This document shows, one piece after another, positions 1,912-59,463 of a stretch of 63,837 nucleotides of DNA (positions within the stretch are counted from its first letter, which is position 1; each line of letters opens with the position of its first letter). A model generated the notes under the pieces. It was not told the DNA's origin, made no database searches, and was given only the letters and a program-made list of their open reading frames with translations. The translations under genes were made by a program, and so were the position numbers. The stretch lies in assembly GCA_903881475.1 (NCBI GenBank), contig CAIRTK010000075.1:1-63837 (forward strand), read 5' to 3'. This DNA is from an uncultured Opitutia bacterium. GTDB lineage: Bacteria > Verrucomicrobiota > Verrucomicrobiia > Opitutales > Opitutaceae.

Positions 1912-2096
1912 TTCACCACGAAGATCACGAAGCGCACGAAGGCCGATCCAGCTGAATCTATTCTTACAGGAGGAAACGGAGAGAACAGAGAAATACCTCG
2001 GAAAACGATCTCTCAGTTCCCTCCGTTTCCTCCGGTAAAACTTTCTGAGGTTTGGGTCCGATCTTCGTGTGCTTTGTGTCCTTTGTGGTGAACTAA
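1912..2096. repeat. CACGAAG-word palindromic intergenic repeat, copy A
   Basis: The left arm carries CACCACGAAG, ATCACGAAG and CGCACGAAGG words; the right arm ends with their complement, CTTTGTGGTGAA. An inner pair, ACAGGAGGAAACGGAG and CTCCGTTTCCTCCGGTAA, is also inverted, so transcripts would fold into a long imperfect hairpin. Copy B is at 9479-9644 and shares both the outer words and the ACAGGAG..AACGGAG core. The right arm runs into the stop codon (2093-2095) of the ABC gene. Confidence 0.75.
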
Positions 2097-4036
2097 GCCT
2101 TGCTGTCGGTGGCGGCGCCCTCGAGCACGGCTTCCTCGCGTTCGCGGCGGAACTGGCTCGTGTAGAGCTCGTAGTAGTGGCCGCGCCGCTGGAGCAGCTC
2201 GGCGTGCGTGCCGGATTCCTCGATGCGACCCCGGGTGATCACGAGGATGCGGTCGGCGCGGCGGATGGTGCTCAGCCGGTGGGCGATGACGAAGCTGATG
2301 CGGCCGGAGAAAACCGTCTCGAGGCCGCGCTGGATGAGCTGCTCGGTCTCGGTGTCGATCGAGGAAGTCGCCTCGTCCATCACGAAGATCTGCGGCTGGG
2401 CGAGCAGGGCGCGGGCGAAGGAGAGCAGCTGGCGCTGGCCGGTGGAGAGGCGGTTGCCGCCCTCGCCGACCTGCGACTCGTAGCCCTGCTCCATCTGCCG
2501 GATGAACCCGTCGGCGTTCACCAGCGCCGCCGCGGCCTCGACCTCGGCGTCGGTGGCGGTGAGGCGCCCGTAGCGGATGTTCTCGCGCACGGTGCCCTTG
2601 AAGAGATGGGGGGTCTGCAGGACGATGCCGAGCTGCGACTGGAGCCAGGCGAGGGAGCGTTCGCGGTAGTCGGTGCCGTTGATCAGGACCTGGCCGCCGA
2701 CTGGTTCGTAGAACCGGCAGACGAGCGAGACGATGGTGCTCTTGCCGCCGCCGGAAGGACCGACGAGCGCGATGGTTTCGCCGGCGCGGACCGTCAGGTT
2801 GAAGTCGTGGAGCACGACCGGACCGCTCTCGTACTTGAAGGTGACGTTCCGAAATTCGATGGTGTCGATCCGGCCGGGCAGGCCGTCGGGGGCGATTTCG
2901 GATTGCGGATTTCTGATTGCGGATAGTTCTGGATGGGAAACGGGCCTCGGGTCCTGGCCGGCGGTGGCTGGACTATCCGGTATCCGCAATCCGACATCCG
3001 CAATGCGCTGTCGGACGGCAGCGCTGTCCCGGATCTTCGGTTCCGTCGCCAGCAGGCCCATGACACGTTCGCCGGCGGCCTGGGCGCCCTGCATCTCGGT
3101 GAGCCGCTGGGCGAGCTGGTTGATCGGGTTGAAGAACTGGCCGGCGAAATTGATGAAGGCGACGAGCGTGCCGAGGCTGAGGGCGTCGGTGGCGGCGAGG
3201 TAGCCGCCGCGCCAGAGGGCGAGGCCGGCGGCGAGGCTGCCGAGGGTGGTGACGATGGGGAAGTAGAGGGCGTTTTGCCGGGCGTTCAGGACGGAGGCGG
3301 CGAACATCCGGGCCGAGAGCTGCTGGAACTCGGCGAGGTTCTCCCTCTCCCGCACGAGGGTCTTGGTGGTGCGGACGCCCTGGATGGACTCGTTGTAGCT
3401 GGCGGTGACCTGGGAGTTGTACTTCCGGATTTCGCGCGAGCTCAGGATCATCCGGCGCTGGAAATATTTCGAGATGACCGCGAGGGGCGGCACGATGCCG
3501 ATGATGATGAGGCCGAGCCGCCAGTTCATGTAGAGCAGGCTGGCGGCGATCATCAGAAGGTAGCTGAGACCCCAGACGATATCCAGAAAGCCCCAGGAAA
3601 TGATGTGGGCGAGCCGGTTGCAGTCGCTGGTGAGACGGGTGATCAGCCAGCCGATGGGCCGGGTGTCGAAGAAGCCGAATTCCAGCTCCTGCAGCTTGTC
3701 GAAGCAGTCGCGGCGGACATCGTGGGCGAGGCGGTTGGAGAGGTTGCCGGCCGCGTCGATGAACACCCAGACGCCGATGCAGAACACGAGGGTGGCGCCG
3801 CCGAAGGCGGCGATGTAACGGGCAAAGGGCGCGTGGGCGCCTTCGCGTACAACGCCATCAATCACCCAGCGCGTGATCTGGGCGAAGCTGGCGTCGCACA
3901 CGGCGATGAAGATCGCGGCGACGAACAGCGGCCAGAGGTAGCGCGGATACGCGAGGGCGCGGCGGAAAATCTTCCACCAGAGTCCGGAGTCCAGCTTGGA
4001 CTGGAACTCGTCTTCCTGTGGTACGGGGGCGGGCAT
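2093..4036 (-). CDS. ABC exporter half-transporter, subunit with the intact catalytic glutamate
   Basis: A 647-residue MsbA/LmrCD-type fused membrane plus ATPase protein, predicted in the inner membrane. Six membrane helices occupy about residues 35-320. The nucleotide-binding domain has Walker A GPSGGGKST near 425, signature LSTGQRQL near 528 and Walker B VMDEATSSID near 550, with the catalytic Glu present and an H-loop (VIAHRLST). The signature departs from LSGGQ. The ATG follows the partner gene's TGA by two bases, so the pair is one operon. About 37 residues between the two domains (about 344-380, including RNPQSEI) are encoded by a palindromic repeat at 2897-3006. Substrate unknown. Confidence 0.9.
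   Translation of the reverse strand: MPAPVPQEDEFQSKLDSGLWWKIFRRALAYPRYLWPLFVAAIFIAVCDASFAQITRWVIDGVVREGAHAPFARYIAAFGGATLVFCIGVWVFIDAAGNLSNRLAHDVRRDCFDKLQELEFGFFDTRPIGWLITRLTSDCNRLAHIISWGFLDIVWGLSYLLMIAASLLYMNWRLGLIIIGIVPPLAVISKYFQRRMILSSREIRKYNSQVTASYNESIQGVRTTKTLVRERENLAEFQQLSARMFAASVLNARQNALYFPIVTTLGSLAAGLALWRGGYLAATDALSLGTLVAFINFAGQFFNPINQLAQRLTEMQGAQAAGERVMGLLATEPKIRDSAAVRQRIADVGLRIPDSPATAGQDPRPVSHPELSAIRNPQSEIAPDGLPGRIDTIEFRNVTFKYESGPVVLHDFNLTVRAGETIALVGPSGGGKSTIVSLVCRFYEPVGGQVLINGTDYRERSLAWLQSQLGIVLQTPHLFKGTVRENIRYGRLTATDAEVEAAAALVNADGFIRQMEQGYESQVGEGGNRLSTGQRQLLSFARALLAQPQIFVMDEATSSIDTETEQLIQRGLETVFSGRISFVIAHRLSTIRRADRILVITRGRIEESGTHAELLQRRGHYYELYTSQFRREREEAVLEGAATDSKA
2897..3006. repeat. 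GGATTGCGGAT-word palindromic repeat inside the ABC exporter gene
   Basis: Plus strand: TTTCGGATTGCGGATTTCTG and more words of that kind, a unique centre of about 40 bases, then the inverted counterpart (ATCCGGTATCCGCAATCCGA and onward). Both arms stay open in the coding frame and lie in the linker between membrane and ATPase domains. Related single-arm word runs occur at 5884-5928, 9121-9155 and 34950-34996. Confidence 0.7.
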
Positions 4037-5883: not shown

Positions 5884-5928
5884 GGAGTGACTAAAATTCG
5901 AAGGTGGAAATCCGAAATTCGAAAAAAT
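5884..5928. repeat. TCCGAAATTCGAA-word repeat arm
   Basis: Words AAAATTCGAAGG, AAATCCG and AAATTCGAAAAA abut the probable GTG start of the ABC gene on the minus strand. It belongs to the word family of 2897-3006 and 9121-9155. Only one arm is clear here. Confidence 0.5.
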
Positions 5929-5996: not shown

Positions 5997-6400
5997 CGGG
6001 AAAAACACGGGGAGTTTTCCGGGGCCCGCTCGATGCGGCGGGCGGGAAACCGGCTCAGGTGGCCGGGGGGCCCGCTCGCGCTACGAGATGAATGGGATAA
6101 AAGTCGGCGCGGTTCATCATAAGGTGCGGGGTTCGATCCGGAGAAAGAGGATCGTGTGGCCGGCAGGCAAGCCGGGAATTTGGAATACACCCGGGCGAAC
6201 TTCCAACTCCGAACATCGAACGCCCAACTTTGAAGTCCGATCCACCGTTGGCCCGGCCTGGATTCGTCGCTTGAGCGCCAAAAGCCTGACGTTCAGCGTG
6301 GGGTGCTCTCTGGGACTCAGCTTGGCATTGCGCTTCGGGGCCGGTCGCATGGAAATTTCCTAAGAAACCCGCCGCCGGCCCGTCTCATCCGCAGAACCTC
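5997..6400. other. Gene-free interval with leader sequence and word repeats
   Basis: About 400 bases with no gene I can support. It holds two further GGGCCCGCTCG stretches, a tRNA-like but unpaired string at 6110-6140 that I reject, and a run of 8-9 bp words (GAACTTCCAACTCCGAAC, then CGCCCAACTTTGAAGTCCGA) at 6197-6243. Promoters for the exporter (minus) and the sigma factor (plus) must lie here, but I cannot place them securely. Confidence 0.5.
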
Positions 6401-6940
6401 ATGTCCACCGACCACCCGAATCCTCGGGCCCAGACGCATGACACCACCGGATTACTGGAACGCACCTTCGCGGAGCAACAGGCGCCCCTCGCGCGTTATG
6501 TCGCGCGGCTGCTCGGCGACGCCGACCGGGCGCGGGACGTGGTTCAGGACGCGTTTATCAAGCTCATGGCCCAGCCGCCCGCGGCGGTCGAGGGCCATGT
6601 GGTCGAGTGGCTGTTCACCGTCTGCCGGAATGGCGCGCTCGACGTGCTGCGGAAGGAGCACCGCATGAGGCGTTTCGAGGAAGGCGAGCTGGAGCGCGCC
6701 CCGGCAGCGGAGGACCGGCCGGGCCGCACACTGGAGGCGGCGGAAACGCACGCATCGGTGCTGCGCCTGATCGACCGGTTGCCGCCGAACCAGCAGGAGG
6801 TCGTGCGCCTGAAGTTCCAGAATGGTTTCAGCTACAAGGAAATCTCCGGGATCACCGCGCTGTCGGTGACCAACGTCGGTTTCCTGATCCACACCGCGGT
6901 GACCCGGCTGCGCCGCGAATTTGCCGCCGAGCGGCCGTAG
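6401..6940 (+). CDS. RNA polymerase sigma factor, sigma-70 family (ECF type)
   Basis: A 179-residue two-domain sigma factor that would direct RNA polymerase to a dedicated promoter set. Region 2 is visible at about residues 28-62 (LARYVARLLGDADRARDVVQ, then DAFIKLM) and region 4 at about 120-175 (RLPPNQQEVVRLKFQNGFSY, then KEISGI and a helix-turn-helix). Its stop overlaps the ribosome binding region (TAGGAGACA) of the next gene, whose N-terminus looks like an anti-sigma domain. The pair therefore looks like a sigma factor with its membrane partner. The regulon is unknown. Confidence 0.85.
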   Translation: MSTDHPNPRAQTHDTTGLLERTFAEQQAPLARYVARLLGDADRARDVVQDAFIKLMAQPPAAVEGHVVEWLFTVCRNGALDVLRKEHRMRRFEEGELERAPAAEDRPGRTLEAAETHASVLRLIDRLPPNQQEVVRLKFQNGFSYKEISGITALSVTNVGFLIHTAVTRLRREFAAERP

Positions 6941-6953
6941 GAGACAAATCCAC

Positions 6954-9449
6954 ATGAATTTTCCCAAGTTTTCCCCCGATGACCCGAGACTGACCGCCTA
7001 CGCGCTGGGCGAGCTGGAAGGCGGTGAGCGCGCCGCGGTCGAGGCGGCGCTGCGCGACGACCCGGCGGCGCAGGCCGCGGTGGAGGAAATCCGGGCCACG
7101 GCAGCGCTGCTTTCCGCGGCGCTGGCCGAGGAGGCCGCCGCGGATTTGCCAGCGGGCGCGGCGCCGGCGCTGACGAAAGCAGCGATCGTCCAAGGCAACG
7201 ATTACCGGAAGCTCGATGGCGGGCCGCTGGGCCGGCTGATCAAGTTCCCGCAGCTTTACTATGTCGTGGGCGGATTGGCGGCGGCGTGCTTCGCCGTGCT
7301 GGTGGTCTTGCGTTCGCCGGAGCCGCGGCCCGCCGCGGCGAAGATTTACCGGGAAGTGGCCCTGGCTCCGGCACCGGTTGCGGCCGTGGAGAGCGGGCCG
7401 ATGCCAGTGCCGCTTGCGATCGAGGAAAAGAAGGATGCGGCGCAATTGGTGCTGGCGCTGCCGGCTCCGCCGATGGTGGCGGACCAGTCCAGGGATAATC
7501 ATGCGCTCCTCAAAGCCGCAGCGAGCAGGGTTGGATCACAGCGGAGCGAGCGGCTGCGCTCACCGCGAACGACATCGGGATCGACCGCGGTCAATTACAC
7601 CTTCGGTGCCGATAGTGGAGCAACAGCACCGGCGCAGTCCGCGGCGGCGGTGCCGTCCCAGGGCTCGTTCGCGATGCTGCAGTCGCGCTCGAGCCAGTCG
7701 CTGCAGACATATTCCGCGAATAAGTCCACGGACCGCTGGGTTGAGACCGGGGGCAGCTGGAACCATCCAGCCTTGCCACTGGATCCCGCGATCGATGCCG
7801 ACCGCGCCTTTGCGCTCAAGACCGTCGATCTGCTGAGCCAGACCAAGCTGCTTGGGCCCGTACTGACGGAGAGGCCGGGCCTGTTCCAGCCGGGTTCACT
7901 GGCGCTAGCGACCGGCACTGTTGGTAAAGTTCCCTTTGGGTTTCCGGTCGCGGAGGATCACCTCCTCAAAGTTAATTCGGCCACGGCGACGAGGATCGGC
8001 ATGGAGATCCAGAGCGGGCCGAGGGATATCGGAGCGATCAGCATCCAGCGTCGGCCGAAGGACAGCGCCGCGCTTAACACCGAGGCCTACGCCTATGTGC
8101 GGGAGAATGATTTTCTGGGCGCGGCGGAAAACCCGCGGTCGACCTTTTCCGTCAAGGTGGACACGGCGAGCTATGCCAACGTGCGGCGATTCATCCAGGC
8201 CGGACGGCTGCCGCCGGCCGATGCGGTGCGGGTCGAGGAGCTGGTGAACTATTTTCCGTACCATTATGCGCCGCCCACCGGGGATGCGCCGTTTGCCGTG
8301 GCGATGGAAGTGGCGGATGCGCCCTGGGCGGCGGGGCACCGGCTGGTGCGCATCGGGCTGAAGGGCCGCGAGGTGGCGACGGCAGCCCGGCCGGCGGCGA
8401 ACCTGGTGTTCCTGATTGATGTGTCGGGTTCGATGAACGAGCCCAACAAGCTGCCGCTGGTGAAGGAGGCAATGCGGCTGCTCCTCGGCCGGCTGCGGCC
8501 GGATGACCGCGTGGCCATCGTGGTGTACGCCGGGGCGAGCGGGCTGGCGCTGCCGTCCACGCCGGCGGTGAAGTCACGGGAGATTCTCGCGGCGCTCGAT
8601 GCGCTGAGCGCAAGTGGCCCGACCGACGGCGCGCTGGGGCTGCAGCTCGCCTACGACATCGCGAAGGCGAACTTCATCCCGGGCGGCGTGAACCGCGTGA
8701 TCCTGTGCACGGACGGCGACTTCAACGTGGGCATCACGAGCGAGGGTGAGCTCACCCGGCTAATCCAGGAAAAAGCAAAGTCGGGCGTGAGCCTGACGGC
8801 GCTGGGCTTCGGGATGGGCAATTACAAGGACGCGACGCTCAAGCAGCTCGCGGACCAAGGGAACGGCAGCTACGGCTACATCGACACGCGGCGCGAGGCG
8901 GAGAAGCTGCTGGTCGAACAGGTGAACGGCATGCTGATGCCGGTCGCGAAGGACGTGAAGCTGCAGGTGGAGTTCAATCCCGCGCAGGTGGCGAGCTACC
9001 GGCTGATCGGCTATGAGGACCGGCTGCTGAAGCAGGAGGACTTCAACGACAACGCCATGGAGGGCGGCGAGATCGGGGCGGGATACACGGTGACGGCACT
9101 CTACGAGATTGTGCCGGCAGAAAGTCCGAAGTCCGAAGTTCGAAATTCGAAATCGGCAGCGTTGCTGACGCTCAAGGTGCGGTACAAGGAGCCGGCAGGG
9201 ACGGTCAGCCTGATGCGGGAGTTTCCGCTGACGGACGCCGGCGGGCGGTTTACGGGCGCGAGTGCGGATTTCAAGTTCGCGGCGGCGGTCGCGGAATTCG
9301 GGATGATCCTGCGCGACTCGCCGCACAAAGGCGCGGGCACGCTGGATCAGGCGGCCGCGTGGGCCGGGGCGGGCACGGACAGCGATGCAGGCGGCTACCG
9401 CGGGGAGTTCGTTGGACTGGTCCGGCAGGCGGAAGCGCTGATGCGATAG
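6954..9449 (+). CDS. Membrane anti-sigma-like / VWA (YfbK-type) fusion protein
   Basis: An 831-residue protein starting MNFPKFSPDDPRLTAYALGE after an AGGAG site; an in-frame ATG at 6921 lies inside the sigma gene and is unlikely. Residues 1-60 resemble the zinc-less anti-sigma head common in this phylum. One membrane helix is at about 102-121 (YYVVGGLAAACFAVLVVLRS), followed by a long low-complexity Ala/Ser region to about 330. The YfbK-type N-domain starts near 386, and the VWA domain has a MIDAS motif DVSGSM near 489. A DUF3520-like C-terminus follows. About 12 residues near 722 (SPKSEVRNSKS) come from a word repeat. Expected role: membrane sensor that holds the sigma factor. The function of the VWA part is unknown. 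Confidence 0.85.
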   Translation: MNFPKFSPDDPRLTAYALGELEGGERAAVEAALRDDPAAQAAVEEIRATAALLSAALAEEAAADLPAGAAPALTKAAIVQGNDYRKLDGGPLGRLIKFPQLYYVVGGLAAACFAVLVVLRSPEPRPAAAKIYREVALAPAPVAAVESGPMPVPLAIEEKKDAAQLVLALPAPPMVADQSRDNHALLKAAASRVGSQRSERLRSPRTTSGSTAVNYTFGADSGATAPAQSAAAVPSQGSFAMLQSRSSQSLQTYSANKSTDRWVETGGSWNHPALPLDPAIDADRAFALKTVDLLSQTKLLGPVLTERPGLFQPGSLALATGTVGKVPFGFPVAEDHLLKVNSATATRIGMEIQSGPRDIGAISIQRRPKDSAALNTEAYAYVRENDFLGAAENPRSTFSVKVDTASYANVRRFIQAGRLPPADAVRVEELVNYFPYHYAPPTGDAPFAVAMEVADAPWAAGHRLVRIGLKGREVATAARPAANLVFLIDVSGSMNEPNKLPLVKEAMRLLLGRLRPDDRVAIVVYAGASGLALPSTPAVKSREILAALDALSASGPTDGALGLQLAYDIAKANFIPGGVNRVILCTDGDFNVGITSEGELTRLIQEKAKSGVSLTALGFGMGNYKDATLKQLADQGNGSYGYIDTRREAEKLLVEQVNGMLMPVAKDVKLQVEFNPAQVASYRLIGYEDRLLKQEDFNDNAMEGGEIGAGYTVTALYEIVPAESPKSEVRNSKSAALLTLKVRYKEPAGTVSLMREFPLTDAGGRFTGASADFKFAAAVAEFGMILRDSPHKGAGTLDQAAAWAGAGTDSDAGGYRGEFVGLVRQAEALMR
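9121..9158. repeat. TCCGAAGTTCGAA-word repeat inside the VWA gene
   Basis: AAGTCCGAAGTCCGAAGTTC followed by GAAATTCGAAATCGG, in frame within the C-terminal third of the coding region, encoding SPKSEVRNSKS. The words match those at 5884-5928. Confidence 0.6.
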
Positions 9450-9478: not shown

Positions 9479-9644
9479 TTAAGCACGTAGGTCGCGAAGA
9501 GCACGAAGGCCGGACCAAGCCACTTTACAGGAGATAACGGAGAAAACAGAGGAGAGTTTCTCCCTTACCTCGGTTGCTTCGGGTGAAAATAATTGAAGGA
9601 TGGAGGGCTTGGCCTTCGTGTTCTTCGCGACCCTCGTGGTGAAC
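9479..9644. repeat. CACGAAG-word palindromic intergenic repeat, copy B
   Basis: It fills the gap between the VWA gene and the convergent PEP-CTERM gene. Left words: GTCGCGAAG and AGCACGAAGGCCG. Inner core: ACAGGAGATAACGGAG and AAAACAGAG, then CTCGGTTGCTTCGGGTGAAA. Right arm: GGCCTTCGTGTTCTTCGCGA, then CGTGGTGAACC. The order matches copy A at 1912-2096 but the unique parts have diverged. A terminator role for the two facing genes is plausible. Confidence 0.75.
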
Positions 9645-13247: not shown

Positions 13248-16200
13248 TTATGCGCGGCGGCGGCGGAGAGCGAGCAACATCGTGCCCAGGCCGAGACCCA
13301 GCAGAGCGTAAGTCGAAGGCTCCGGCACCGGGGTGAAGTTGAGATAAACATCATTGCCCACTGCGGTCACGGAGAAGGATCCCCCGTTGAGGCTGTTGGT
13401 GAAGCCGGTCGCCACGATCGAAATGTTGGCGGCAGTGAAGCCGGTCAGGCCGTCGGTATGGGCGATGAGCCAGGCATAGCTGAGCGAGGAATTGAAATCA
13501 GGGACCGCGCCGGCTGCGCCCGTCACGCCAAGGGAGAGCAGATTGAGGGTAAAGGGTGAGCCCAACGTGGCGGTGAAGGCGAGCCCGCCCGTGACATCGA
13601 TGCTGTCGTAGCCGGCGCCTCGGGTTCCGGCGGCGCTTTGCACCTGAACATCGTAGGTCCCGCCCGAAGCCCAGGTGAGGCCGGCGGCAAAGGTCAGCAG
13701 ACCGGGCGAATTGCCGGGCGAGATCACGACATTGGTGCCGGCGACGATGGGAGAACCAATGACGCCGTTGCCGCTCAGGGTGGCGCCCGCGCTGAGGTCG
13801 AGCGGATTGGTCAAGGTCACGCCGGTGCCCACGCTGAGACTGCCGCCGTTGAAGGTGATCGTCCCGGTGCCCAGGGCAGTGCTGGAACCGGCGATCAGGG
13901 TCCCGCCGGAAATCGTGGTCCCGCCCGAATAGGTGTTGTCGCCCGTGAGGGTGAGGGTGGAGCTGCCACATTTGTTGATCCCCCCGGTGCCAATGATGGT
14001 GCCTTGGAAGGTGTCGTTGTACGATTGGCGGATCTTCAGGGTGCCCGACCCCAAGTCCAGGGTGGTGGAACTGTCGCCGCCGAGGGAACCAATCCTTGGG
14101 TTGGACGAAGTGAAGACCGCCGAACCACTATCCGAAAGGTACATGCCACCGGAGCCCGCCGCGGTGTCACTGGCGAAGATCATCGTCCCGCCCTCGATAT
14201 CGATGGAGGAGGAGAGCCCGCAGTTGTTGCCGCTCAGGGTGACGGTGTCGGATCCGATTTTTTCGATGCTGCCGCCGCTGCCGATCAGGGTTCCCATCAG
14301 CGTGAAGTCGTGATCCCCACCCAGGGTGAAGCCGTCCATGTTGCCGAAGTCGATCGCATTGCAGATCGTGAGATCGTCGATACTCGTGCTCAGCCCGGCC
14401 AGTTGGGAATTATCGCTAGCAACGGTCAGTGCCCCGGTGCCGAGCGCGTGGGTGCTGCCCAGCACGAGCTGGCCGGACTGAAGGGTCGTTCCTCCGGTGT
14501 AATTGTTGTTGCCCGAAAGGGTGACGGTGCCGGTGCCAAAGGCGGTGTCGGGATGGCCGATGATGACGGAGGTCACGCCATTGGCGGTCGTGAGGTTGGA
14601 GGTGACGTTGAGGATGCCGCCGTCGATGCCGGTTAGCTTGAGCGTCATGCCTTCTGGCACGGTGATCGTGCCGGTCAAGGTGAGCCCGTAATTTCCTGAT
14701 ATGCTGTCGTAGCCGTAGGTCGTGGTACCAAGATAAGGCAGCTCGGAAGCGCCGGAGAGCGGGGTCAGGTTGATACTGTCGCTGATCGTGCGCCCGGAAG
14801 TGGCCGGCTGGGAGGAATCGAAGCCGATGATGCTGGTCGGATCGAGGGTCAGGGGGTTGAGCAGCGCGATGAGATCCTGCGGCTTATACGCAACAAAATC
14901 GTCGGGATAATAGCCCCAGTTTTCCGTATAACCCACGTAGCCGGATGGCCCGAGGTTGATCGTCTGGCCATCGGCAAACGGGAAGGCCTGCGAAGAATCG
15001 AAGATCAGGATGGAATGCGTCACGTTCACGGCACCTGAGAACGTGTTCGAGCCCTGCAGGACGAGGGTAAGCGGCGCGTTTGAGGGGGAGTTGACCGTCA
15101 GCCCGGTCGTCTCATCGAGATTATCCGCCAGACCAGCCTGCACGGTGAGCCGCCCACCACCGCCACCGAACTTATAATCGGTATCCTCGGGCAGGAGGAT
15201 GACCGTGTCGCTGTCCAGGACGGCACTGGTCGAGCTGCCCAAGCCGTAAAAATTTGCGTTGGTGAAACCGCTCAAGTCGATCGTGCCGGAGAAGGCGTTG
15301 GTCGAGCGTGAGGGATTGGAGTCGAACCCGAGCGTGCCGCTGAAGCAGGCCGGGTTGGTGATCAGGGAAATCAGGGTCGCTGGGGAGTTGTCGCTGTCGT
15401 TGTTAAAGCCGCGTCCCATACCGATGTAGCCGCCATTCTTGGCCTGGATGCTGACCGCCGGCAGGGCGTCGGTGCTGGTGAAAATGATGCCGGCGCCGTC
15501 GGCCGTCAGGCGGTCGATCTGGTCGCTGTCGGTGGTTCCGGTAATGATGGCAAACCCGCCGCCGGTGAAGGTGATCTTCGAATCCTCGTTGTCAGCCGTG
15601 AGGGTGCCGGCGAAATAGGTCTTGGTCTGATCGGCCAGATTGAGGGTCGTGCACGTGTCGGTCGCCGTGACCGTGCCCGTGAGCTTGAGGGTGCTTAGGC
15701 CGTAGCCGTTGTTCTGCTGACCCAGCGCGACGTTGTTGTGGAGGATGACGTCGTTGGCGAGGGTGACCGTGTTGGTGTACGCCAGCGCCATCGTGGTATT
15801 GTCCATCAGCTCCACCGTGCCGGTGCCGACGGGGCCGCTGATGATGGTGCCGGAGTTGGTGACCGTCGAAGCGAACAGCAGGATGCTACCGGAGGAGACG
15901 GTGACGCCGCCCGTGAACGTGCTGTTCGCGGAGAAAATGATGCTTTGGGCGCCGGTCTTGAGAATGCTGCCGCTGCCGCTGACCGGGCTCCAAAAGTAGA
16001 TGCTCGCCCCGTCGGCATCAATCGTGTGCACGCCGGACGGGAGGGCGACCGGCAGCCAGAAAATACCCCACCAGCCCTGGTCCGCGATGGAAGTGATATT
16101 GCCGGTCAGCGTCAGGGTGGAATCGTTGGATCCGTTGCCGAGGTAGTAGGTCGTGGAGGCTCAGGTGAACGTGAGATTGTGTAGCGTGAGCGAACTGGAG

Positions 16201-18536: not shown

Positions 18537-18540
18537 GATG

Positions 18541-18642
18541 GCCTGTGACATGTGCCGTGTGACCTGTGAACAGCCTTCAATCCTGATGCTCGACTGACCC
18601 CATTCCGATGCCCCGTCACATGTCACTTGTCACACGTCACAG
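18541..18642. repeat. GTCAC-word palindromic intergenic repeat, copy 1
   Basis: The left arm TGTGACATGTGCCGTGTGAC then CTGTGA is inverted relative to the right arm, GTCACATGTCACTTGTCACA then CGTCAC. The core is about 45 unique bases. It fills nearly the whole gap between ybbA and the permease and ends seven bases before that start codon. A second copy lies at 21304-21398, on the other side of the permease gene. Confidence 0.7.
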
Positions 18643-18648
18643 CCCGGC

Positions 18649-26541: not shown

Positions 26542-27780
26542 ATGCTGCTCCAAGAAACCCTCCGGATGGCCCTCAGTTCGCTCGGGGTGAACAAGCTCCG
26601 CTCGTTCCTCACCATGCTGGGCATCACCATCGGGGTGTTCTCCGTCATCGGCGTGATGACGGCGGTTTCGGCCCTGCGTAACTCGATCGAGACGGGCCTG
26701 AGTTTCCTCGGCTCGAACATGGTCCAGTTCGCGAAGTACCCGACCTTCAGCAATGGTGGCGCGGACCGCCGCAAATACGATTTGCGCCGCAACATCACCC
26801 TGGAACAGGCGCAGCGTTATCAGCGGCTCATGGAAAGCTTCACCGATGTCGTCTGCCTCAAGGTCTTCGAGCAGAACAGCGCCCCCCAGGCCGTCTACCA
26901 GAACCGCAAGTCCACGCCGGGAGTCACCTTCGGCGGGAGCAATGAAAACTTCCTGGTGGCGAACCAATATGCCGTCGAGATCGGCCGCAACATCACCGCC
27001 GAGGATGCCGAGCTCGGGCGCCCGGTCATCATCATCGGCCAGGATCTTGTCAAGAAGCTGTTCCCCTCCGAGTCGCCTCTCGACAAGCTGATCAAGATCG
27101 CGGGCCGCACCTACACCGTCATCGGCACGTTCACACCGAAGGGATCCTCGTTCGGGCAGAGCCAGGATGACATCGCCATCGTCCCGATCACGCGCTTTCT
27201 CAGCGATTACGGGGCGAACAACTACACCGTGAATGTCGCCACGCAGGCGCCCAGCCAGCTGCTCTACAACGATACGGTGGACAAGGGCATCACCGCCATG
27301 CGCATCGTGCGCGGGCTCAAGCCGGAGGACGAGAACGACTTTGAGATTTACTCCAACGATTCGCTGGTCGCCGCCTTTGCCAAGGTGGCCGATGCCGTGC
27401 GGGCCGGCGCGTTCGTCATCAGCGCGATTGCGCTCCTCGCGGCCGGCGTGGGCATCATGAACATCATGCTGGTGAGCGTGACCGAGCGCACGAAGGAGAT
27501 CGGCATCCGCAAGTCCATCGGGGCGCGCAAATTCAACATCCTGACGCAATTCCTGATCGAGGCGGTTGCCATCTCGCTGGCCGGCGGCGTGCTCGGCATC
27601 CTGCTGGGCGTGGCCGGGGGCAACGCGCTGGCGCTGATGCTCAAGGCCTCGGTGGTTTTCCCCTGGGACTGGGCGGCACTGGGCCTGATTGTCTGCAGTG
27701 CCATCGGGATCGGCTTCGGGTTTTATCCGGCCTGGAAGGCCGCGGGACTCGATCCGATCGAGGCGCTGCGGTACGAATAA
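26542..27780 (+). CDS. ABC transporter permease 2, MacB type
   Basis: A 412-residue paralogue of the previous protein with the same plan: N-terminal helix (about 22-44), periplasmic MacB_PCD domain, then three FtsX helices. Signature: TKEIGIRKSIGARKFNILTQ; ending GLDPIEALRYE. Its periplasmic domain differs strongly from permease 1, which suggests division of labour in substrate or adaptor contact. Last gene of the efflux operon. A hairpin-forming repeat at 27809-27919 separates it from the convergent kinase gene. Confidence 0.88.
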   Translation: MLLQETLRMALSSLGVNKLRSFLTMLGITIGVFSVIGVMTAVSALRNSIETGLSFLGSNMVQFAKYPTFSNGGADRRKYDLRRNITLEQAQRYQRLMESFTDVVCLKVFEQNSAPQAVYQNRKSTPGVTFGGSNENFLVANQYAVEIGRNITAEDAELGRPVIIIGQDLVKKLFPSESPLDKLIKIAGRTYTVIGTFTPKGSSFGQSQDDIAIVPITRFLSDYGANNYTVNVATQAPSQLLYNDTVDKGITAMRIVRGLKPEDENDFEIYSNDSLVAAFAKVADAVRAGAFVISAIALLAAGVGIMNIMLVSVTERTKEIGIRKSIGARKFNILTQFLIEAVAISLAGGVLGILLGVAGGNALALMLKASVVFPWDWAALGLIVCSAIGIGFGFYPAWKAAGLDPIEALRYE

Positions 27781-27808
27781 TACGGGGCGCCGGCCGGCAG
27801 GAGTTTTT

Positions 27809-27919
27809 GGCGGCGAAGAGGCACAAAATTTCAAAGACTCCAGGCCAAATCTCCCGCGCGCCCATAGGCGCAATGGCGACTCCTGTGCAGTCTTTTCAGC
27901 CCTTGTGCCTCTTTGTGGC
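27809..27919. repeat. AGAGGCACAA-word palindromic intergenic repeat
   Basis: Outer arms GCGAAGAGGCACAAAA and TTGTGCCTCTTTGTGGC are inverted; an inner pair, CAAAGACT and AGTCTTTT, is inverted as well, around a core of about 50 bases. It fills the gap between two convergent genes and could terminate both. Same architecture as the CACGAAG repeats but with different words. Confidence 0.65.
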
Positions 27920-27949
27920 AATCCCTTCCGGGTCTGGTTGGCTGGCGGT

Positions 27950-41565: not shown

Positions 41566-41599
41566 AAAAAAGCCGGTTCCCGCGGGAACCGGCTTTTTT
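41566..41599. terminator. Bidirectional intrinsic terminator
   Basis: AAAAAA, GCCGGTTCC, CGCG, GGAACCGGC, TTTTTT: perfect stem with A- and T-runs on either side. It serves the ECF operon (plus) and the DUF4199 gene (minus). Confidence 0.95.
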
Positions 41600-46243: not shown

Positions 46244-46346
46244 GCGGAGTTCGCAGATCGCAGTTCGAAGATCGGCCGATCCGGCGCAGAGCGCATGGCG
46301 CCTGTCTGACCAATCCGGCCGACGACCGAACTGCGGGCTGCGAATC
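46244..46346. repeat. GTTCGCAGATCGC-word palindromic intergenic repeat
   Basis: Left arm GAGTTCGCAGATCGCAGTTC then GAAGATCGG. Inverted right arm CCGACGACCGAACTGCGGGC then TGCGAATC. The core is about 45 bases. It lies between the PhyH and Rieske genes, which converge, and is followed by a separate hairpin at 46349-46371. Confidence 0.65.
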
Positions 46347-46348
46347 CC

Positions 46349-46371
46349 GAAACGGGCCCGCGTCCCGTTTC
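46349..46371. terminator. Hairpin between converging PhyH and Rieske genes
   Basis: GAAACGGG, loop CCCGCGT, CCCGTTTC: eight-base perfect stem reaching into the Rieske stop codon. No T-run. Confidence 0.45.
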
Positions 46372-56809: not shown

Positions 56810-57937
56810 TCAGCGTTTCGCCAGTTTCACGTCCATCCACACAGCGAGCGTGAGCACGACGCCGCGGGCGATGAATTTCAGCTCGGGCGACACCGCGAGC
56901 AGCGTCATGCCGTTCAGCAGGCTCGCCATGATCAGCGCGCCAAAGATCACGCCGAGCACGGTGCCGCGTCCGCCACGGAGGCTGGTGCCGCCGATGACAC
57001 ACGCGGCGATGGCATCGAGCTCCATCGAGTCGCCGACCGTCGTGGTCGAAGCGCCGGCGTAGGCGGTCTGGAGGAGGCCGGTGATCGCCACGATTCCGCC
57101 TAGCAGCGTGTAGGCGCCGATCACCACGCGCTGCACGGGCACGCCGGACACGAAGGCGGCCTCCTCGTTGCCACCGATGGCATAGAGATGCCGGCCGAAG
57201 GGCGTGTGCCGGGTGATGACCTGGATCACGAGTGCCACGACGCCGAGAATCAGCACGGGGAGGGGAATGCCGCGAAACTGGTTCACGCAGAGCACAAACA
57301 GCAGCAGGGCTTGGGCGGTGAGGAAGAGCTTGAGGAATGCGAGTTCGGCATCGTCGACCTCAAACCCCATGGAAGCCCGGCGTTTCCGGCCGCGCAAGGT
57401 GACGGTGACCAGGGCCAGCAGGACGAATGCGATCAGTCCGTAACTGGCGAGCGGCGGCAGATAATAGGTGGTCAGCAGCGAAAACAGGTTGGGCCGCCCG
57501 CCCGGAGCCACGGGCACGGTGTGGGTGTTGATCACGAGCCAGAAGGCGCCCTTGAAGATGAGCAGGCCGCCCAGCGTGATGATGAACGCCGGAATGCGCT
57601 CGCGGACGATCAGGGTGCCCTGGGCGAACCAGATCAGCAGGGCGATGGCGATGGCCGGCAAAAACGCCAGCAGCGCGGGCCAGTGATGGTTGAACACCAG
57701 CACGGCGGCGATGCCGCCGATGAGGCCGACGCCGCTGCCGACCGAGAGGTCGATATGCCCCGGCAGGATCACGAGCAACATGCCGAGCGCGAGGGTGGCG
57801 GTGATGGCGAGTTCGACGGAGAGGGCGGACAGGTTGCGCGCGGACAGATACTGGGGCGAGGCCACCGCGAAAAAGACCCAGATCGCAACCAGGCTCAGGA
57901 TGAGGGAAAAATCCCGGGCGGAAAATTTGATTTTCAT
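56810..57937 (-). CDS. xylH: Sugar ABC transporter permease (XylH/RbsC family)
   Basis: 375 residues, about ten predicted helices. Family motifs: LPGHIDLSVGSGVGLIGGIA near 57 and the C-terminal IGGTSLRGGRGTVLGVIFGA, the EAA-like loop of branched/ribose-type permeases. It includes a soluble insertion of about 30 residues near 185-220, as in XylH. With the genes just upstream (binding protein, dual ATPase) it makes a complete importer, probably for xylose or a similar pentose. It converges on dnaJ, with three bases between stops. Confidence 0.85.
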   Translation of the reverse strand: MKIKFSARDFSLILSLVAIWVFFAVASPQYLSARNLSALSVELAITATLALGMLLVILPGHIDLSVGSGVGLIGGIAAVLVFNHHWPALLAFLPAIAIALLIWFAQGTLIVRERIPAFIITLGGLLIFKGAFWLVINTHTVPVAPGGRPNLFSLLTTYYLPPLASYGLIAFVLLALVTVTLRGRKRRASMGFEVDDAELAFLKLFLTAQALLLFVLCVNQFRGIPLPVLILGVVALVIQVITRHTPFGRHLYAIGGNEEAAFVSGVPVQRVVIGAYTLLGGIVAITGLLQTAYAGASTTTVGDSMELDAIAACVIGGTSLRGGRGTVLGVIFGALIMASLLNGMTLLAVSPELKFIARGVVLTLAVWMDVKLAKR

Positions 57938-57939
57938 GG

Positions 57940-59463
57940 TCAGGCGGCGGAAAGCCGGCGGCCCAGGGCGGCGGCGAGGAGTCTTTCGGGGGTGGCCTCG
58001 GTGCGGCTGAACTCGCCGCCGAGGCCGCCTTCGTGGAGCATGAGGATGCGGTCGCTCATGCCCATCAGCTCAGGCAATTCGCTGGAGACGAGCACGACGG
58101 CCTTGCCCTCGGCGGTGAGGCGGTTGACGAGCTCGTATACCTCCAGCTTAGCCCCGACGTCGATGCCGCGGGTGGGTTCATCCAGAAACACGACCCGTGG
58201 TCCGGTCATCAGTGCCTTGCCGATCACGACCTTCTGCTGATTGCCGCCGGAGAGGGTGCCGACGACGGTCTCAAGCGATGGTGCTTTCACCCGCAGCGAG
58301 GAGAAGAATCCCTGATTGGCCCGGACCTCGGCTTCCTCGTCCACGAGCAGACCGCGCCGCAGGCGGAGGAGTGACGAGAGCGAGAGATTGAACCCGATGT
58401 CCCGATCGAGCACCAAGCCGTAGCGCTTGCGATCCTCACTGACGAGGGCAAGTCCGGCGGCCAGGGCCTCCACGGGGGTTGCATCGCGAAGGGACCGGCT
58501 CCCGATCATCACCTGACCGCCCAGCCGTAGGCCCCAGGCCCCGAAAATATGCATGAGCAGCTCGGTGCGTCCTGCACCCATGAGGCCGCCGATGCCGAGG
58601 ACTTCTCCGGCCCGGACGGTAAAACTGATGTCGTGCAGCCGGGCGGGCCGATTGGGCGAGGCGGCGACGCTGAGGTGATCCACCTGCAGCAGGACGTCAC
58701 CAACGCGGGAGGCGGCCCGTGGAAACAGGTCCTTGATTTCGCGGCCCACCATGTCGCGGATGACGCCAGACTTGGAGGTGGCGGCCGTGGAATGGGTTGA
58801 GATGGTGGCGCCATCACGCAAAACCGTGATGCGATCGGCGACGGCGAACACCTCATCGAGCTTGTGCGAGATATAGATGCAGGCGATGCCGCGCGCCTGG
58901 AGTTCACGCAAGAGCGTGAGGAGGATTTCCACCTCGCGCTCGGCGAGCGCGGCGGTGGGCTCGTCAAGGATCAGGATGCGGGTCTGCTTGCCGAGGGCCT
59001 TGGCGATCTCGACGAGCTGCTGCTGGCCCACGCCCAGCTGCCCGACTGGCGTCTCGGACGAGAGGTCGAGACCCACCCGGGCTAGGACGGTGCGGGCTTC
59101 GGTGTAGAGCTTTTCCCAGTCGATAAGCAGGCCACGGAGCGGTTCGCAGCCAAGAAAGAGATTTTCCGCGATGGAGAGCTCCGGAATGAGCGCGAGCTCC
59201 TGGTAAATCACCGCGATGCCGTGGCGCTGGGCGTCGGCAATCGAGCGAAACTGCACGGAGTGGCCGTCGAGCAGGAGCTCGCCCTCGTAGCTGCCATGGG
59301 GATGCAGGCCGGACAGCAGTTTGATGAGGGTGGACTTGCCGGCACCATTCTCGCCGCAGAGTGCATGGATCTCGCCGGGCCGCAGATCAAAGCTCACCTC
59401 GCGCAAGGCAGTCACCCCGGGAAAGCGCTTCGTGATTGCACGGGCCTCAAGGAGGGCGGGCAT
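57940..59463 (-). CDS. xylG: Sugar ABC transporter ATP-binding protein (XylG type, two ATPase domains)
   Basis: 507 residues with two tandem ATPase domains. The first has Walker A GENGAGKST near 35, a VGQQQLVEIAKAL signature and ILDEPTAAL. The second lacks a classical P-loop (VLGIGGLMGAGRTELLMHIF), with signature LSGGNQQKVVIGKAL and FLDEPTRGID, as is normal for RbsA/XylG. The gene lies between binding-protein and permease genes with gaps of 2-4 bases. Confidence 0.9.
   Translation of the reverse strand: MPALLEARAITKRFPGVTALREVSFDLRPGEIHALCGENGAGKSTLIKLLSGLHPHGSYEGELLLDGHSVQFRSIADAQRHGIAVIYQELALIPELSIAENLFLGCEPLRGLLIDWEKLYTEARTVLARVGLDLSSETPVGQLGVGQQQLVEIAKALGKQTRILILDEPTAALAEREVEILLTLLRELQARGIACIYISHKLDEVFAVADRITVLRDGATISTHSTAATSKSGVIRDMVGREIKDLFPRAASRVGDVLLQVDHLSVAASPNRPARLHDISFTVRAGEVLGIGGLMGAGRTELLMHIFGAWGLRLGGQVMIGSRSLRDATPVEALAAGLALVSEDRKRYGLVLDRDIGFNLSLSSLLRLRRGLLVDEEAEVRANQGFFSSLRVKAPSLETVVGTLSGGNQQKVVIGKALMTGPRVVFLDEPTRGIDVGAKLEVYELVNRLTAEGKAVVLVSSELPELMGMSDRILMLHEGGLGGEFSRTEATPERLLAAALGRRLSAA

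Follow-up and report, generated by a model that had tools for sequence, protein, structure and literature searches.

How do the spacers of a single bacterium come to carry palindromes that share a layout and differ in their letters? The question is raised by E7, a gene-less palindrome in the window, the whole 63,837-nucleotide stretch analysed here, which is contig 75 of a genome of 3.21 Mb in 83 contigs and whose MacB-type permease has its nearest named relatives in Opitutaceae and other Verrucomicrobia MAGs. Five elements of the window, that at 27809 included, had been predicted to combine tandem words, inverted arms and a unique core, to lie tight against gene ends, and to stem from one process generating many word families. 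All five exist, with the correction that the word quoted for the 27809 element starts at 27817. For comparison we used three genomes of the same genus, G348, G060 and G372. Stretches of G348 are collinear with most of the window at about 84–89% nucleotide identity, leaving 9.5–16.6 kb without a long alignment, and stretches of G060 (up to window 52 kb) are also collinear with most of it, mostly at 74–87%, with 64–67% in 9.7–12.6 kb; for G372, one 10-kb contig was compared with the window there. The ORF calls around the elements are crude.

Palindromes of tandem words in the window and across the genome

E7 lies between convergent genes that end at 27780 and 27950. Its exact 11-nt arms, AAGAGGCACAA and TTGTGCCTCTT, are at 27816 and 27903, its words have a period of about 10 by inspection, and a consensus scan found no terminator-like site there. 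The features of the window are as follows, none of them being assigned to a strand:

27807–27925: E7, the element under study, a gene-less palindrome of GCCACAAAGAGGCACAA-type words with nested inner arms, in a convergent gene gap
46245–46349: E8, a gene-less palindrome of TTCGCAGATCGCA words, period 7
18540–18645: E4, a gene-less palindrome with GTCACAT words of period 7, lying between two ABC transporter genes of the same orientation
2899–3007: E2, a gene-less palindrome of GGATTGC words, period 7
1914–2092: E1, CACGAAG arms with a period of 9, the loop enclosing a nested GGAGGAAAC palindrome
1964–2038: the inner palindrome nested in E1, GGAGNNAAC words, period 9
9479–9643: another CACGAAG element, which likewise encloses a nested GGAGNNAAC palindrome
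9118–9156: E3, a one-armed run of AAGTTCG words inside ORF 6921–9449
5888–5928: E5, a one-armed run of AAATTCG words
57937–57940: a site that is empty relative to locus L254 of G060, with two genes 2 bp apart that are adjacent in G348

Several particulars of the original prediction did not survive. The families were said to share no sequence, but by inspection the words of the 27809 element (AGAGGCACAA) and CACGAAG are both CAC-R-AAG-like. The core of E7, with its ATAGGCGCAATGG stretch, is not unique because the E7 family recurs inside the CACGAAG loops of both L148 and L156, and a second palindrome is common to the cores at 1917 and 9484. Placement tight against gene ends is contradicted by E2, which sits in frame within an ABC exporter ORF (2093–4036, minus strand). 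On folding, E7, E8, E4 and E2 each form one long hairpin (z = −4.70, −4.85, −2.04 and −5.34, respectively), and no Rfam match was found in the window at gathering scores. A further degenerate 7-base word run (AACTTCCAACTCCGAACATCGAAC) was observed at 6170–6240 in a doubtful ORF. At 41566–41599 a convergent gap contains a perfect 16-bp hairpin ending in T6 that resembles an ordinary bidirectional terminator.

The architecture itself extends far beyond these few cases. An ungapped scan for inverted arms over 431,711 bases (the window and 20 stretches of its own genome) returned 113 pairs with an arm score of at least 13 and 54 with a score of at least 16, against 10 and 0 in one Markov-1 simulation. 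A tandem period was present in 26 of the 84 arm pairs scoring at least 14, compared with 2.35 for shuffled arms, and the predicted combination of a common layout with different words is thus confirmed. On the basis of pattern, another 24 of the 84 pairs were classed as REP-like or as members of other non-word families and left out of this group. The lag of the 26 word palindromes was 7 in five, 8–10 in 20 and 12 in one; with the crude ORF call, eight lie in convergent gaps and eight inside ORF calls. Also observed were a separate palindromic family without tandem words, GTCATTCTGAGCGNAGCGAAGAATCC (L007:17196, L008:499, L013:7865, L016:3210 and L017:9295), a palindromic family GGTGGAACGCGTTG (L003:166, L004:8150, L012:11522 and L015:16650, and nested in the CACGAAG loop of L141 too), and one RAYT gene of the same genome (L002 flanks; L012:16145) whose flanking TGTGGGCGGGGTGCCC hairpins are present at other places in the genome too, which makes it an ordinary REP/RAYT pair.

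With at most one mismatch, CACGAAGNNCACGAAG occurs 130 times in the genome against 6 times for the reversed pattern. CACGAAG-type words gave 29 paired elements, together with 52 single runs of which some are chance matches, in stretches many of which had been picked for that pattern. Loops of the paired elements often contain another palindrome or a piece of one: GGAGNNAAC words (both window copies, L142, L148 and L153), the E7 family (L148 and L156), CACGGAT words (L140 and L157) or GGTGGAGCGCG (L141). The linker bases of the two arms agree at 16/45 positions within a CACGAAG element against 13% (166/1256) between elements (p about 0.001), so the arms are related beyond the family consensus, though most linkers differ. 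Among 387 Verrucomicrobiota genomes the exact CACGAAG pattern is patchy, occurring in 119 with a maximum of 132 hits per genome.

Orthologous spacers and the genes they carry

Across congeners some of the same spacers are empty, or hold elements made of other words. The E7 spacer has CACAAAG-type words in the window, ACAAGGA in G348 and GTGTTAG in G060, and six of 17 more distant relatives have the convergent neighbour of E7 but, by eye, no such element (L026, L027, L028, L031, L033 and L036), L026 having only a 23-nt hairpin at this gene pair. In an Opitutus MAG (L024, after 4239), period-7 words GATTTTCGATTTTTGATTTTCGATT directly follow the permease stop, and the word at the E7 position is a different one. 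The E8 spacer holds TTCGCAGA words in the window and TTGGGAG words in G348; in G060 it has no palindrome, and the BLAST blocks leave 5 bases there compared with 133 in the window. At the E1 site the same family is present in G348 and other words in G372 and G060. G348 has also retained E2, in place of which G060 and G372 have one-armed runs of other words. At the E4 spacer the GTCACAT words are kept in G348, and both G060 (L206) and G372 (L203) have a GxxExxY gene between arms of CGCGAA words. Because of this gene, we surveyed the flanks of candidate loop genes.

The second family with genes in such loops is the four helix bundle protein IVP. L254 of G060 is an IVP gene with CTAATGC arms, inserted between the two genes that stand 2 bp apart in the window, and L354 of G348 is an IVP element in a spacer where the window's genome has a CACGAAG palindrome (L145). 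By eye, no target-site duplication was evident at the E8 or L254 site. At one further orthologous site the GxxExxY gene is inverted between its arms in G060 (L212) relative to the window's genome (L222) and G372 (L214), and the comparison of L212 with L222 hints at loop-gene inversion.

Genes for GxxExxY (PF13366) and IVP (PF05635) were sought in 12 Verrucomicrobiota, each with at least 17 exact CACGAAG hits, and in 30 genomes labelled Bacteroidota/Bacteroidetes, Chlorobi, Ignavibacteria, Kryptonia, Marinimicrobia, KSB1 or just bacterium. The best 30 of 56, 92, 137 and 58 matches, which include gene fragments, were analysed in the respective searches, one of the 30 PF05635 loci from other phyla being unusable; ParE genes served as the control (30 of 83 matches, one unusable). 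For each locus, 300 bases on either side of the gene were aligned as inverted repeats. Arms scoring at least 14 flank 39/60 PF13366 and 33/59 PF05635 genes and 0/29 ParE genes (Fisher tests against ParE, 3e-10 and 4e-8), p-values that are optimistic because Verrucomicrobiota rich in CACGAAG were chosen, only the best 30 matches per search were used and orthologous copies were included. The counts are not fully independent, since L203/L206, L212/L214/L222, L233/L244, L228/L232 and L242/L246 are orthologous copies. Between Verrucomicrobiota and the other genomes, the armed loci divide into 22/30 and 17/30 for PF13366 and 21/30 and 12/29 for PF05635. With arms scoring at least 16 the figures are 30/60 (19/30 and 11/30), 24/59 (17/30 and 7/29) and 0/29 for ParE. 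This leaves 21/60 PF13366 and 26/59 PF05635 loci without arms scoring at least 14; at L208, the stop-codon boundary concealed arms that become visible once the match end is taken as the boundary.

Ordinary genes of 330–750 bases have arms scoring at least 14 in 4/111 cases. Flanks cross-paired between loci reach this score in 9/150 and 8/150 pairings for PF13366 (17/300), 2/150 and 1/145 for PF05635 and 0/145 for ParE, the PF13366 value being above zero because the arm words of this family resemble one another. RAYT genes have such arms in 11/27 cases (best 30 of 63 matches, three unusable), a frequency from which PF13366 and PF05635 differ with Fisher p-values of 0.04 and 0.25. Arms therefore flank PF13366 and PF05635 genes at roughly the frequency seen for RAYTs, and at one far above that of ParE. 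An enzyme tracking with the elements had been suggested, and this is borne out as physical linkage, with a putative nuclease family and a four-helix family lying inside such palindromes. The set is not confined to this lineage: half of the PF13366 and PF05635 loci are from genomes of other phyla. No GxxExxY or IVP gene was found in 80 genome-contig loci by tblastn with six proteins at E <= 1e-4; in viral contigs there were three GxxExxY loci, one of them with word arms. In a tally made by hand over the 387 genomes, with genome size and relatedness uncontrolled, PF13366 is present in 23/24 genomes with at least 10 CACGAAG hits versus 211/363 others (p 1.2e-4), although G275 is CACGAAG-rich yet has no PF13366 match.

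GxxExxY corresponds to TIGR04256/PF13366, and all three proteins scanned match TIGR04256 in NCBIfam, one having also been scanned with Pfam. IVP corresponds to PF05635/TIGR02436, and both proteins scanned match TIGR02436 (NCBIfam). In 20 aligned GxxExxY proteins, D63 and K75 are invariant and E73 is found in at least 90%. This is the D...ExK active-site pattern of PD-(D/E)XK nucleases, the fold to which PF13366 is assigned, and GxxExxY is a likely DNA-cutting enzyme. For IVP we know of no catalytic motif. Searching the PDB by sequence gave nothing significant for GxxExxY (best E 0.57) and identified 2gsc and 2rld for IVP; a GxxExxY structure model built from a two-sequence alignment had a pLDDT of 45 and was unusable.

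The two gene families also differ in the period of the words around them. Where PF05635 arms score at least 14, the best lag is 7 in 24 of 33 cases, 8 in six, 6 in two and 10 in one, while for PF13366 it is 8–10 in 35 of 39, 7 in two, 5 in one and 11 in one (Fisher p 6e-10 for period against family, with four rows of lag 5, 6 or 11 excluded). These look like two element classes that are distinguished by word period and not by letters. Of the single generating process first proposed for the many word families, one architecture with many words remains; the two period classes are better read as mobile elements and their derivatives than as spacers generated locally.

Gene-less copies, a deletion derivative and words changed in concert

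In four congeners, 31 loop-gene copies were analysed, a few weak or fragmentary matches being left out, and 25 of them (26 with L208) have arms scoring at least 13. Several gene-less spacers share words with these gene-bearing copies. E2, E3, E5 and E8 match IVP arms, the class predicted by their period, with scores higher than in any of 100 shuffles and much higher than those of other-phyla arms: E2 has the words of L353 in G348:C51 (20 versus a shuffled maximum of 11.5), E3 those of L352 in its own genome (16 versus 11), E5 those of L355 in G348 (21.5 versus 12) and E8 those of L244 in G060 (15.5 versus 12.5). In G348, the elements occupying the E7 and E8 sites match IVP arms as well (16.5, and 13.5 versus a shuffled maximum of 12.5), and at the E1 site those of G060 and G372 match GxxExxY arms at 16.5 each, with an arm from another phylum scoring 21 for G060. 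For E7 itself the closest gene-bearing congener arm is that of L350 (GxxExxY, G060), a weak match at 13.5 versus a shuffled maximum of 12.5, with other-phyla arms at 14.0. Among the congener loop-gene arms scored, no gene-bearing partner was found for the GTCACAT words of E4, the GGAGNNAAC palindromes or the G060 element at the E7 site. The CACGAAG outer arms were partnerless in this scoring because the arms of L208 were missing from the set; by inspection, the arm words of E1 match the CACGAAG arms of L208, a GxxExxY copy in G348.

One gene-less copy is a deletion derivative of a gene-bearing element. L197 of G348 is a GxxExxY gene between ACGCAGAG arms, and at the orthologous site the window's genome has a gene-less palindrome (L021, ~15704–15816) with flanks 93–94% identical. 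The L021 loop aligns with the first bases of the L197 gene at a score of 19, compared with a maximum of 10 in 500 shuffles. A translated search for gene remnants in 77 loops gave nine hits at E <= 0.5 in real and nine in shuffled loops (best 0.002 versus 0.012), and it says little either way because it missed the L021 loop itself. Since that search added no cases, the deletion derivative rests on this one pair.

Words can also change in concert across both arms. L233, in the window's genome, and L244, in G060, are orthologous IVP genes with an identical insertion point and 74% nucleotide identity over 239 aligned positions. The words of L233 are mostly AGATGGA/AGATGGG and those of L244 AGATCGG/AGATCGA, in each case in both arms; there are a few departures, for example, in the left arm of L233, one AGATTGG and one AGATCGA.

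Mismatches between arms, read on the gene strand, were divided into G-U and A-C. The ratios are 54:58 for PF13366 and 31:62 for PF05635, and by locus the lean is to G-U in 10 and to A-C in 13 PF13366 loci (16 equal) and in 4 and 19 PF05635 loci (10 equal). As there is no excess of G-U, there is no sign that a gene-strand RNA hairpin is what is kept. Upkeep at the RNA level through wobble pairs on the gene strand is thus unsupported, with IVP arms leaning the opposite way. The A-C lean of PF05635 on the gene strand is as if the antisense strand were kept in shape.

Origin of the elements and their relation to known systems

In our judgement these spacers are probably small palindromic selfish elements, mostly gene-less, that fall into two classes by word period and have fuller forms with a gene in the loop. 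Class A would have arms of at least two tandem words with a period of 8–10 (CACGAAGNN and kin) and a GxxExxY gene in the loop of its fuller form; class B would have arms of period-7 words and, when fuller, a four-helix 23S-IVP/S23 gene. The word period would be held within each class and the letters of the words would vary freely. Gene-less copies would arise by internal deletion, as in the one case seen, and presumably spread in trans, like MITEs. We infer that the elements are mobile and that the loop proteins have roles in moving them. Their arms might extrude as DNA hairpins, GxxExxY could cut the hairpin or cruciform, or the target, and repair would then copy the element into a new spacer, while slippage within words together with template switching between arms would rewrite the words in concert. 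Class B may work similarly, with IVP as the subunit that binds nucleic acid and with cutting left to a nuclease of the host.

Other origins have to be weighed against this one. GxxExxY and IVP genes could be passengers that inserted into pre-existing palindromic spacers, the loops being insertion hot spots; loops do harbor other nested palindromes, and the same spacers take differing elements across congeners. We nevertheless find this unlikely, because the period of the arms depends on the gene inside, the gene-less L021 loop retains the gene start at an orthologous site, and arms and gene appear jointly between genes that abut elsewhere. The joint appearance of a whole arm-gene unit at a site empty elsewhere also speaks against the single generating process first proposed, in which slippage during replication and template switching would make words and arms locally, without any mobile element. 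Concerted word change in both arms would fit such an origin, as would linker bases that agree more within an element than between elements (16/45 versus 13%), but the same words occur in several genomes, both around genes and at sites that are not linked. Slippage and template switching probably act on the words but do not spread the elements, and as the full account they appear quite unlikely.

Selection for host features such as bidirectional terminators, mRNA 3' end protectors or RNA regulators could place palindromes in convergent gaps, where 8/26 word palindromes are found with the crude ORF call, and would suit the strong folding of the four elements folded. It is a very unlikely explanation, however, for elements of which 8/26 lie inside ORF calls, which have no terminator-like site at E7, which give way to other word families or to no element at the same spacer in congeners, which are patchily distributed (119/387 genomes, up to 132 hits), and in whose gene-bearing copies G-U is no commoner than A-C among gene-strand arm mismatches. 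Least credible is that they are REP/BIME-type repeats spread by RAYT (Y1) transposases. The genome does have two Y1_Tnp genes and GTAG-type palindromes, O. terrae is reported, in the accessible part of the source, to be rich in GTAG repeats (PMC3733652), and RAYT flanks hold inverted arms too (11/27 scoring at least 14). Yet these RAYT arms are short hairpins of their own and not tandem words (by inspection, 0/11 armed RAYT loci have word arms), and the word palindromes form a group apart from the 24/84 pairs set aside as REP-like or non-word. In the same uncontrolled hand tally, a RAYT match is found in 21/24 CACGAAG-rich genomes versus 261/363 others (p 0.15), and G017, with 56 CACGAAG hits, is not among the genomes with a RAYT match.

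If the spacers are selfish elements of two period classes, a bolder proposal can be put forward tentatively. They might be a new kind of selfish element whose partner protein recognizes the period of the words and the shape of the hairpin and not the sequence, with GxxExxY as a homing-like hairpin nuclease and the rRNA intervening sequences as a few members of the sister class that landed in rRNA genes. A protein of this sort would ignore sequence, and the words would therefore drift freely, yet in concert across the arms. GxxExxY and the four-helix bundle/S23 proteins, both widespread and uncharacterized, gain a context as frequent loop genes of palindromic elements, which makes the function of both families directly testable. 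This context also gives rRNA intervening sequences a candidate origin. It could account for many of the puzzling repeats in spacers of environmental bacteria and for some of their in-frame inserts, and it raises the question of how a protein could follow a period instead of a sequence.

Among known systems, REP/REPIN sequences with their RAYTs are likewise high-copy palindromic spacers accompanied by a gene family flanked by its own palindromes. They differ in having a Y1 protein, where the present elements have a likely PD-(D/E)XK or a four-helix protein and arms of tandem words with no GTAG tag seen; by inspection none of the 26 word arms has a terminal GTAG, a result that is partly circular because REP-like pairs had earlier been set aside. 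MITEs, too, are short, have terminal inverted repeats and can derive from a gene-bearing copy by internal deletion. Terminal inverted repeats are common to the gene-less and gene-bearing copies here, the latter being presumably autonomous. Unlike in MITEs, no DDE transposase or target duplication was found, and the arms are words of free sequence and fixed period. Rickettsia palindromic elements are palindromes inserted in frame in genes and in this resemble the element at 2899–3007; to our knowledge, they have no word architecture or partner gene. Cyanobacterial STRRs are intergenic tandem 7-mers of high copy number. The same is true of the TAACTGA heptamer repeats of Beggiatoaceae, as described in the accessible part of their report (PMC4679880), in which the terms 'S23' and 'four helix' are absent. 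Both are direct repeats, unlike the present elements, with one inverted case reported. A search of titles and abstract openings, which mostly did not cover subscription journals and is not proof of absence, found no paper linking GxxExxY or IVP genes to word palindromes outside rRNA.

The original prediction was made without knowledge of a named element of this kind; for the period-7 class there is in fact a relative, the intervening sequence (IVS) of 23S rRNA. As far as the available text describes it, the Coxiella IVS is 428 nt long, with 28-bp inverted ends, an S23 ORF and two or three GACAGAT heptamers, and is termed a selfish element (PMC4990558). According to the same text it has, like the period-7 class, inverted terminal repeats, an S23-family ORF in the loop and tandem heptamers before the ORF; unlike that class, it lies in 23S rRNA and is excised by RNase III, whereas the present elements occupy spacers or ORFs in many copies and words and are mostly gene-less. 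IVP ORFs are also described, in the accessible parts of the respective papers, within insertions in the rRNA of CPR bacteria (PMC11270868) and at some cas loci (PMC3936711). Within our own survey, an S23/IVP ORF lies in the loop at 33/59 PF05635 loci, with lag 7 in 24/33, while the gene-less copies have no ORF. Because the window elements lie outside rRNA, in protein-gene spacers or ORFs with no Rfam match, they are IVS-like and not IVS, and the rRNA IVS is the named relative of the period-7 class.
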